Shown here: piece by piece, positions 85 through 10,106 of the stretch
How the letters are laid out: the number at the start of each line of letters is the position of its first letter
How positions within the stretch are numbered: the stretch's first letter is position 1
Assembly (NCBI GenBank): GCA_028709585.1
Contig: JAQVWS010000001.1
Coordinates: 8,791 to 58,077, forward strand
Origin: Syntrophomonas sp.
Lineage (GTDB): Bacteria > Bacillota > Syntrophomonadia > Syntrophomonadales > Syntrophomonadaceae
Reading direction: 5' to 3'
DNA: 49,287 bases
Program-made: the position numbers and the translations under genes
Notes under the pieces: generated by a model
The model's input: only the letters and a program-made list of their open reading frames with translations
Told to the model about the DNA's origin: nothing
Database searches by the model: none

Positions 85-705
85 ATGTACGATGGGTTGG
101 TAAGCAGGAAAGAACTAATTGATACCGTTAACCTGCTGATTTCTAAGGGGGATGGGCCATTTAGTGTTGCCGAACTTGATTTGGATAACTTTGGATTTAT
201 CAATAATGTCCATGGAAAGGAACTGGGCGATGATATAATTAAGAAGTTAACTTCTATATTAAAAATGAATACTGCCGACAATGACCTTATTTGCAGGCAA
301 GGGGACCAGTTCACGATTTTATTGATTAGTAAGAGTGCCGAAAGAGGCTTTATGGATATGGAGGAGATTCGAAGATACCTTTCTGATAATACCTTTTCCT
401 TCCAAGGTAAAGATAAAACTGAAGATGTTTATATAACATTTAGCTGCGGCATTGCCAGTTATCCGCGCGATGCCAAGAACTCGGTTGAACTTTTAAGAAT
501 AGCAGACAGTGCCATGTTTAGAGGTAAAAAACTGGGCAAGAATAAAGTATGTTTATCGGAAGCTGAAAGTATGGCCCTAAAATCCAGCTATTTTACAAAG
601 ACTCAACTCGATAGGTTAGCTGCATTATCCAAAACCAATGAAAAAACAGAGGCTTTTCTCTTAAGAGAGGCTCTGGATGATTTATTTAAAAAATACTCAC
701 AGTAA
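85..705 (+). CDS. GGDEF-like domain protein with degenerate signature (QGDQF) and C-terminal RHH-like segment
   Basis: DLDNFGFINNVHGKELGDDIIKKL, CRQGDQFTILL and ADSAMFRGKKLGKNKV match the GGDEF fold; ATG at 85 follows AGGGGG; C-terminus YFTKTQLDRLAALSKTNEKTEAFLLREALDDLFKKY resembles RHH. Confidence 0.8.
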   Translation: MYDGLVSRKELIDTVNLLISKGDGPFSVAELDLDNFGFINNVHGKELGDDIIKKLTSILKMNTADNDLICRQGDQFTILLISKSAERGFMDMEEIRRYLSDNTFSFQGKDKTEDVYITFSCGIASYPRDAKNSVELLRIADSAMFRGKKLGKNKVCLSEAESMALKSSYFTKTQLDRLAALSKTNEKTEAFLLREALDDLFKKYSQ

Positions 706-7674: not shown

Positions 7675-8751
7675 CTATACCATATATTCCAATATAAGCT
7701 GCTCTCGCATCCTCTTTAAGCCGCTTTTTATTGAGCGTGCCCGGACCTCGCCTATTCCTTCCACATCATCCAGTTCTTCAATACTGGCATGCATGATGTT
7801 ATTGAGCAATGAAAAGCGCTCCACCAGGTTTTCCATAATGGCTAAAGGAATTCGTGGTATCTTATTCAGCATTCTATATCCGCGCGGTGCTACTGATTGT
7901 TCCAAATGGCTGCTGGCGGTTCCCAGGGCCAAAACTTTTAATAAAAATACTGAATCGGATACTTCTTCTTCAAAGGCACGCAGCATAATCTGCAGTATTT
8001 CAGCTGCTGATTTCTCTTTATTATTAGAATAATCTTTAATTATTAAAGTAGACTCTTCCTCTACATTGGATAACAGTTCATCCAATTGCATTTTGACCAG
8101 GCGGCCTTCACTCCCTAATTCACTTATGTAATTCTCAATTTCTCCAGCTATATTCAAAACCTTAATACAACGTCGGAGTACTTCACAGACCTCTACCACA
8201 GTTACCATGTCTTCAAATTCCAACCCCCCCAGATGCTGCAGCTCCCTGATATAAACGTTTCGATACTTCTCCAACGTCTGCAGAGCTTGATTGGCTTTTA
8301 CAAGTATGGAAGCAATATCTCGCAGCCGAAACCTAATATTGCCTTGATAGAGAGTAACCACTTGCCGCCGCTGCGACACAGCTACTACCAGTTCTCCAGT
8401 TTGTTGAGCCACCCTTTCAGCGGTACGATGACGTATCCCTGTTTCCTGGGAAGGCAGGTTAGGGTTAGGATCCAACTGGGCATTTGCAATTAGTATTCTG
8501 GAAACATCATGATTAGTGATAATAGCTCCGTCCATCTTAGCAAGTTCATATAGGCGCGCCGGGGTGAATTCGCAATCAATTTCGAACCCTCCGCTGACGA
8601 TATCCATCAATTCCGGGGAATCACCTACTACAATCAAACCTCCGGTATTGGCCTGCAGTACATTTTCAATTCCCAAGCGAAACACTGTCCCCGGGGCCAG
8701 CATTTTTAAGTACTTGCGAAAATTAGAACGGTAAATATCTTCTACCAACAC
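7675..8751 (-). CDS. disA: Diadenylate cyclase / DNA integrity scanning protein
   Basis: MDGAIITNHDVSRILIANAQL, TGIRHRTAERVAQQTGELVVAVSQRR; C-terminal HhH segment. Confidence 0.96.
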   Translation of the reverse strand: MLVEDIYRSNFRKYLKMLAPGTVFRLGIENVLQANTGGLIVVGDSPELMDIVSGGFEIDCEFTPARLYELAKMDGAIITNHDVSRILIANAQLDPNPNLPSQETGIRHRTAERVAQQTGELVVAVSQRRQVVTLYQGNIRFRLRDIASILVKANQALQTLEKYRNVYIRELQHLGGLEFEDMVTVVEVCEVLRRCIKVLNIAGEIENYISELGSEGRLVKMQLDELLSNVEEESTLIIKDYSNNKEKSAAEILQIMLRAFEEEVSDSVFLLKVLALGTASSHLEQSVAPRGYRMLNKIPRIPLAIMENLVERFSLLNNIMHASIEELDDVEGIGEVRARSIKSGLKRMREQLILEYMV

Positions 8752-10106
8752 GATCCCTCCATAACAATCTCTATAAATTCGTCCAGATTTCTTACTTCTA
8801 TTATTTCTAAACCGCTATGATTATAGATGCCATTATTTGTCCCTGCAGGAATCACTGCCTTTTTGAAACCTATTTTCTCAACTTCTTTAATTCGTGCCTC
8901 CAAAAATGGCACTGACCTTACTTCCCCGGAGAGCCCTAATTCTCCAATGAACACCATATCCACAGGCAACGGCCGCTCTCGATAACTGGAAACAATTGCT
9001 GCCGCAATACCTAAATCAACACATGGATCTTTAAGAAAAACTCCTCCGGCTACCTTAAGATATACATCATAATTGGATAGTCTAAGACCTCGCTTTTTTT
9101 CCAAGACCGCGATAATCAGAGCCAGACGGTTCTGATCAATGCCGGAAGCCATCCTACGACCATAGGCAGGTGCAACCGATGATACCAGCGCCTGCATCTC
9201 AATCAACAGGGGGCGGCTGCCTTCGAAGCTAGCAACTACAGCACTCCCACATACGGTAGGGTCTTTGGTATTCAAAAAAAGCTTGGAAGGGTCTTCAACT
9301 TCACTCAAACCCGAAGCGCTCATCTCCATTAAGCCAATCTCATTAGTAGCGCCAAAGCGGTTTTTTACACCCCGTAACAGTCTGAATGGAAAATTCTTTT
9401 CCCCCTCGAAGTAAATAACCACATCAACCATATGTTCCAGAACTTTCGGACCGGCTAAAGCCCCATCTTTAGTAACATGCCCAACCAAAAAAAAGGTCTT
9501 TTCACTCTTTTTAGCCATCTCCATAATCCTGGCAGTACATTCACGCAATTGAGATATACTGCCTGGAATGGAAGTAAGATTCTCAGAATAAACCGTTTGA
9601 ATTGAATCTATAATAATAAAATCGGGGTCAATTTCCTTTAAGTAGTTCCCCAATAGATCAATGTTTTGTTCATTTAAAAAGTATATAGAGTCACTATCAA
9701 TATCCAATCGCAAAGACCTTAGACGGATTTGTCCAGCTGACTCCTCCCCGGAGAGATAGAGTACCTTCTTGCCATTTTTAGCCACATTGAAGGCAACCTG
9801 CAATAGCAAGGTGGATTTCCCGATGCCTGGATCTCCTCCAAGTAAAACCAGCGAACCAGGTACGATACCCCCTCCTAACACTCGATCCATTTCATCCATT
9901 CCAGTAGAAAGGCGAAACAGATTATTATTGGGGATATCGCAAAGAGCCACGGCCTCAACCCTGCGGCTGCGGTGGGCAGGGGTGGCCTTAGGGCCGCTTT
10001 CTTCCAACAGGCTGTTCCAATTTCCACAACCTGGACATCGGCCTAACCACTTACCCGCTTCATAGCCGCAATTTATGCATACAAACCTGGTTACAATTTT
10101 CGCCAT
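8742..10106 (-). CDS. radA: DNA repair protein RadA (Sms)
   Basis: N-terminal zinc motif CINCGYEAGKWLGRCPGC, Walker A GDPGIGKSTLL, KNRFG motif, Lon-like C-terminus. Confidence 0.97.
   Translation of the reverse strand: MAKIVTRFVCINCGYEAGKWLGRCPGCGNWNSLLEESGPKATPAHRSRRVEAVALCDIPNNNLFRLSTGMDEMDRVLGGGIVPGSLVLLGGDPGIGKSTLLLQVAFNVAKNGKKVLYLSGEESAGQIRLRSLRLDIDSDSIYFLNEQNIDLLGNYLKEIDPDFIIIDSIQTVYSENLTSIPGSISQLRECTARIMEMAKKSEKTFFLVGHVTKDGALAGPKVLEHMVDVVIYFEGEKNFPFRLLRGVKNRFGATNEIGLMEMSASGLSEVEDPSKLFLNTKDPTVCGSAVVASFEGSRPLLIEMQALVSSVAPAYGRRMASGIDQNRLALIIAVLEKKRGLRLSNYDVYLKVAGGVFLKDPCVDLGIAAAIVSSYRERPLPVDMVFIGELGLSGEVRSVPFLEARIKEVEKIGFKKAVIPAGTNNGIYNHSGLEIIEVRNLDEFIEIVMEGSCW

Follow-up and report, generated by a model that had tools for sequence, protein, structure and literature searches.

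GGDEF domains are abundant, and the roles of the degenerate ones are mostly unknown. By a Pfam count, about a quarter of GGDEF domains have degenerate signatures (PMC3974145). The locus described here raises the question of what such a domain might do when it is joined to a putative DNA-binding domain. It lies at the start of a 49,287-nucleotide stretch of a Syntrophomonas sp. contig (hereafter the window, meaning the whole stretch that was analysed), where a first-pass annotation described a degenerate GGDEF domain fused to a C-terminal segment resembling a ribbon-helix-helix (RHH) domain. It proposed a single-component regulator of doubtful cyclase activity, possibly responsive to nucleotides.

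An isolated gene with scattered relatives

The open reading frame at 85-705 (+ strand) is a real, monocistronic gene encoding a protein of 206 amino acids, with an ATG start and a Shine-Dalgarno-like AAGGGGG at 70-76. Its neighbours, gltX on one side and cysE on the other, are both on the opposite strand, and the gene stands alone. Downstream of it the convergent gltX occupies 873-2318. At 752-800, between the two genes, the DNA can form a 20-bp hairpin, probably a terminator common to both (for 736-815, -38.1 kcal/mol and z -8.5). The cysE side continues with cysS and the remainder of a conserved cluster. A T-box leader (Rfam RF00230) precedes cysE at 7946-8172 (- strand) of locus L034. On the same locus a scaffold gap of 100 N (8691-8790) lies directly ahead of window position 1. 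Identical stretches of 20-odd bases flank the gap on both sides, and the two contig ends probably overlap there rather than sequence being missing.

G001 and G005 belong to the window's genus, and in both of them gltX adjoins cysE with no GGDEF-RHH gene in between. A search with the tail through all 63 genomes of the window's class matched the window alone and none of the other 62. Because gltX and cysE are adjacent in G001 and G005 and the tail is absent from the other genomes of the class, the gene is a sporadic insertion here and was probably acquired laterally. The cluster is rearranged in the relatives G006 and G004 (loci L075 and L076, respectively), where genes for an NhaD/ArsB-like transporter and a KefB-like antiporter replace gltX upstream of cysE.

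The first-pass annotation had called for a search for other GGDEF-RHH fusions, and these were found in ten other genomes, drawn from several families and from two or more classes besides that of the window. A survey of RHH_3 domains in 300 genomes of the phylum identified one further long frame with GGDEF, in G335. A tail-only profile (A1), built from two sequences and with no GGDEF sequence in it, gave eight further good matches in 154 genomes of the class of G335 and one match in G535, which belongs to a third class. With the exception of a truncated copy in G476, the matched tails sit C-terminal in single frames that also encode GGDEF. The family therefore has ten full-length members including the window protein (the other nine are in G335, G387, G407, G490, G477, G478, G386, G462 and G535), in addition to the truncated copy. 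None of the full-length members has an additional sensor domain. In G476 (locus L100) the C-terminal part alone stays in frame, as a result of a frameshift, a sequencing error or decay. The weaker tail matches in G409 and G302 are separate small RHH proteins.

No further members were found in 59 genomes of the class of G535, and a whole-protein search of genome contigs returned ordinary GGDEF domains only. Viral contigs held no family member, plasmids gave no tail match, and phages gave GGDEF matches only. We also sought conserved neighbour genes that might name a target across the members, and none was consistent.

Identity to the window protein is 36-60% in the tail compared with 26-35% in the GGDEF part. 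In a tree of GGDEF domains built without the tail, a single branch divides all ten members from 28 other GGDEF domains (support 88/75, one change, 90% of bootstrap trees). Three rows of this tree have long branches, and the tree is consistent with one origin of the family. Chance does not account for the fusion, since other genomes encode it too, each time in a single open frame. We therefore consider it highly improbable that the window gene is a diguanylate cyclase gene in decay whose C-terminal extension arose by chance. Such an account would suit the degenerate motif, the absence from the class's other 62 genomes and the lack of a gene between gltX and cysE in G001 and G005. However, the frame is intact, a ribosome-binding site is present, and decay is already contradicted by a fusion that is conserved in distant genomes and whose tail is the best-conserved part.

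The C-terminal tail

The putative RHH tail comprises residues about 163-205 (571-699, + strand), as placed by Pfam and profile comparison. Its elements would be a strand at about 164-170 and helices at about 172-183 and 187-205, the helix positions coming from a low-confidence AlphaFold model. In a Pfam scan of the protein, RHH_3 (residues 167-204) and Antitox_RHH each matched the tail with an E-value of 1.2e-3, slightly under the cut-off. RHH_3 was above the cut-off in the genome scan (22.9 bits with neighbours against 21.6) and in seven of the nine other full-length members, the scores of single members lying near the cut-off. G462 has a weak match to RHH_1, and G386 has no RHH Pfam match.

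Profile comparisons were made with hhalign against 29 RHH_3 domains taken from other, stand-alone RHH proteins. A profile of 11 tails matched this set at 98.1% over 46 ungapped columns. The window tail alone matched at 96.4%, compared with 9.7% or less for 100 column-shuffled controls. Comparison of the tail family with the single sequence of CopG was weak (12%), and the RHH assignment therefore rests on the 29-domain profile. On these comparisons a relationship of the tail to the RHH families is well supported, and the tail is homologous to RHH_3 and Antitox_RHH (PF12651 and PF20605). None of the other RHH_3 frames examined in the survey is a GGDEF fusion; they are small proteins or ParA-type fusions. 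In four loci (L039, L040, L041 and L054) frames of 334-349 amino acids encode a ParA-type ATPase with RHH_3 fused at its N terminus.

The first-pass annotation had named a tail predicted as a single extended helix as grounds for rejecting its reading. The AlphaFold monomer, computed from an alignment of the window protein with related loci and viral sequences that included no tail homologues, instead has two helices (159-183 and 187-205), but the first runs through the expected strand region, so that the strand is not formed, and confidence here is low (pLDDT about 54-66). In four members the Tyr-Tyr of the presumed strand is followed immediately by a proline, as would not be expected within a single long helix. 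Arc and other RHH proteins likewise have a proline ahead of helix 1.

The modelled helices, together with the weak matches to antitoxin families, could mean that the tail, instead of a DNA-binding RHH, is a hairpin of helices or a protein-binding domain of the antitoxin type. We regard this as quite improbable given the 98% match, without gaps, of the tail profile to stand-alone RHH proteins, the proline straight after the strand in four members, the palindromes upstream of members (see below) and the lack of a toxin gene beside the window copy. That copy is flanked by opposite-strand gltX and cysE, and a type II toxin-antitoxin reading was dropped since there is no toxin neighbour.

The GGDEF domain

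The GGDEF domain (residues 6-154; 100-546, + strand) matches Pfam PF00990 above the cut-off (E 4.9e-22). It begins at the extreme N terminus, with no sensor domain ahead of it. The GGDEF region has a pLDDT of about 90 or more in the AlphaFold model (88 overall), and the best PDB match of the model in Foldseek is the GGDEF structure 4iob (E 3.4e-14). The predicted structure confirms the GGDEF fold of residues 6-154.

Translation bears out the degenerate signature QGDQF at 298-312 (+ strand) that was first read from the DNA, in which the third-position Asp is kept. Compared with the canonical R-x-G-G-D-E-F, the R-Q-G-D-Q-F of the window protein is changed at positions 1 and 4, and in the alignment it is also one residue shorter. 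The protein lacks the GG(D/E)EF signature of an active diguanylate cyclase even when Ala or Ser is allowed at position 1. It also lacks the RxxD motif of a c-di-GMP receptor acting through the I-site, having AxxD instead, and the Arg of this inhibition site is absent from all ten full-length members. The family signatures are QGDQF, AADEF, GPDEV, AGDEF, SGDEF (two), GGDEF (two), GRDAF and SGDQF. The intact GGDEF motif persists in G478 and G477, and the Asp/Glu of the signature is retained across the family. Because a cyclase with AGDEF or SGDEF can still be active (PMC3974145), the signature alone is not decisive for inactivity.

Residue roles were assigned in PleD numbering (PMC12943098, PMC7288161). 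At the position of K332, the transition-state Lys (PMC12943098), the alignment places Gly37 of the window protein (193-195, + strand). A Lys is found at this position in none of the ten full-length members but in 20 of 20 compared GGDEF domains. The remaining GGDEF proteins of the window's genome all keep both this Lys and the GG(D/E)E signature (8/8). Judged from the alignments, the family-wide loss of the Lys is a stronger sign of non-catalysis than the signature, and with QGDQF it supports the earlier doubt about cyclase activity. The Arg equivalent to R446 is lost in most members and is Gly in five.

Other contacts are largely kept. Asp32 (178-180, + strand), equivalent to the metal ligand D327, is present in ten of ten full-length members, as is the second metal-binding acid, equivalent to E370 (D74 of the window protein). 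The equivalent of the phosphate Lys, K442, is kept in nine of ten. The guanine-binding Asn and Asp are each kept in eight of ten, G387 and G386 having lost these as well.

These residues bear on two alternative roles for the domain. The protein could be a DNA-bound diguanylate cyclase, the RHH tail dimerising or localising the GGDEF domain and thereby controlling c-di-GMP synthesis, at least in members with an intact motif. The metal ligands are invariant, G478 and G477 have GGDEF, four others have AGDEF, SGDEF or SGDQF, and such AGDEF and SGDEF motifs are compatible with activity (PMC3974145). However, none of the ten members, not even G478 or G477, retains the transition-state Lys, the R446 equivalent is Gly in five, and the window motif is altered at positions 1 and 4 and one residue short. 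In VCA0965 a Glu-to-Ala change at motif position 4 abolished activity (PMC3974145). We consider a DNA-bound cyclase unlikely.

It is also rather unlikely that the GGDEF domain is ligand-free and serves an RHH regulator as a structural or oligomerisation module, or as a docking site for a partner protein. The faster divergence of the GGDEF part than of the tail and the additional loss of the guanine Asn and Asp in G387 and G386 would be expected of such a module. The conservation of the metal-binding acids in ten of ten members of a divergent domain, and of the guanine Asn and Asp in eight, would not. From the retained metal and guanine contacts we infer that the GGDEF-RHH protein may be nucleotide-responsive. 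The solved PleD complexes with ppGpp and pppGpp (9g85 and 9g86) are among the Foldseek matches, and (p)ppGpp is therefore a candidate ligand besides GTP.

Upstream palindromes and a proposed regulator

A candidate operator lies ahead of the window gene at 5-29, where the palindrome TATGTTACATATTATATATAACATA contains TATATATA (17-24). The palindrome is not significant alone (32 of 500 shuffles were as good), and in this AT-rich genome, with 161 copies of TATATATA in 2.28 Mb, the copy at 17-24 is mildly notable. In seven of eight high-GC members the 120 bp upstream of the gene contain TATATA or ATATAT. There are 10 clusters of these sequences in 960 bp of upstream DNA compared with three in the rest of the loci, which amounts to about 99 kb, and of 1000 sets of dinucleotide shuffles not one had upstream sites in seven of the eight members. 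These figures are to be read knowing that the loci on which the pattern was tested are those in which it was first noticed, that promoters are AT-rich, and that G477 and G478 are congeners. Some of the upstream TATATA sites overlap possible -10 boxes and may be -10 elements.

Copies of TATATATA just upstream of the GGDEF-RHH gene account for one of two in the whole genome of G478, two of four in G477, and two of four, overlapping each other, in G407. No clear regulon emerged from the remaining genome-wide sites in these three genomes, most of which are inside predicted frames. By eye, a TTGACC-17-TATAAT promoter in G335 is closely preceded by two copies of ATATATG spaced 13 bp from each other, and in G490 a likely -10 box is closely followed by TATATA. 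The sole TATATATA of G387 directly precedes a gene pair for an RHH-like antitoxin and a PIN-like toxin (L130, 1488-2254), a similar-looking operator for a different RHH protein.

Because a single chain combines an RHH domain with one domain that has nucleotide contacts without catalysis, a one-component regulator is suggested. The earlier proposal of such a regulator fits this anatomy, with no other sensor domain, an RHH tail and TATATA-type palindromes upstream. We think it reasonably probable that the protein is a one-component, probably autorepressing regulator whose non-cyclase GGDEF domain would bind a guanine nucleotide. The C-terminal RHH domains would pair into dimers (or tetramers) on TATATA palindromes, the sites would include the gene's own promoter, and autorepression would probably follow. 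The GGDEF domains would have given up cyclase function, with the Lys and the RxxD product-inhibition site lost and the metal and guanine contacts kept, and as a pair may bind GTP, (p)ppGpp or a relative. Binding would in turn alter the affinity of the RHH dimers or how they are spaced; as with DNA binding, autoregulation and ligand binding, we infer the direction of this effect. More tentatively, the family may represent a cyclase domain turned ligand sensor (for GTP, (p)ppGpp or related nucleotides) of an RHH repressor, present in distant Bacillota with a conserved TATATA operator.

GGDEF diguanylate cyclases (PF00990) such as PleD, DgcR and DosC share with the family the fold, the metal-binding acids and, mostly, the guanine Asn and Asp. 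Unlike these cyclases, the family lacks the transition-state Lys, RxxD and an N-terminal sensor, and has a degenerate signature and a C-terminal RHH domain. SgmT, CdpA, YybT/GdpP and PelD likewise use a GGDEF fold for something other than synthesis. The degenerate GGDEF domain of PelD binds c-di-GMP, as does that of SgmT (for SgmT, PMC3974145). In contrast to both, the GGDEF-RHH family lacks RxxD, and its partner domain is predicted to bind DNA.

The RHH protein NikR combines an N-terminal RHH domain with a nickel-binding ACT-like domain. It thus resembles the present family in having RHH and ligand domains in one chain, although in this family the RHH stands at the C terminus and is partnered by GGDEF. 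In Myxococcus xanthus, CdbA is a stand-alone RHH DNA-binding protein that binds c-di-GMP through the RHH itself (PMC7156744). It ties an RHH protein to guanine-nucleotide signalling but has no GGDEF domain, and it is the closest functional idea rather than an architectural relative.

Our literature search found no description of GGDEF fused to RHH, CopG or other DNA-binding domains. The parts are already known; what is new is that GGDEF and RHH are combined, that the Lys is lost throughout the family, and that there is a candidate operator. At about 206 residues, and with that candidate operator to hand, the system could be tested using a single protein and a single DNA probe. If the proposal is true, it would offer a simple setting in which to ask whether a GGDEF domain can act as a nucleotide sensor in transcription.
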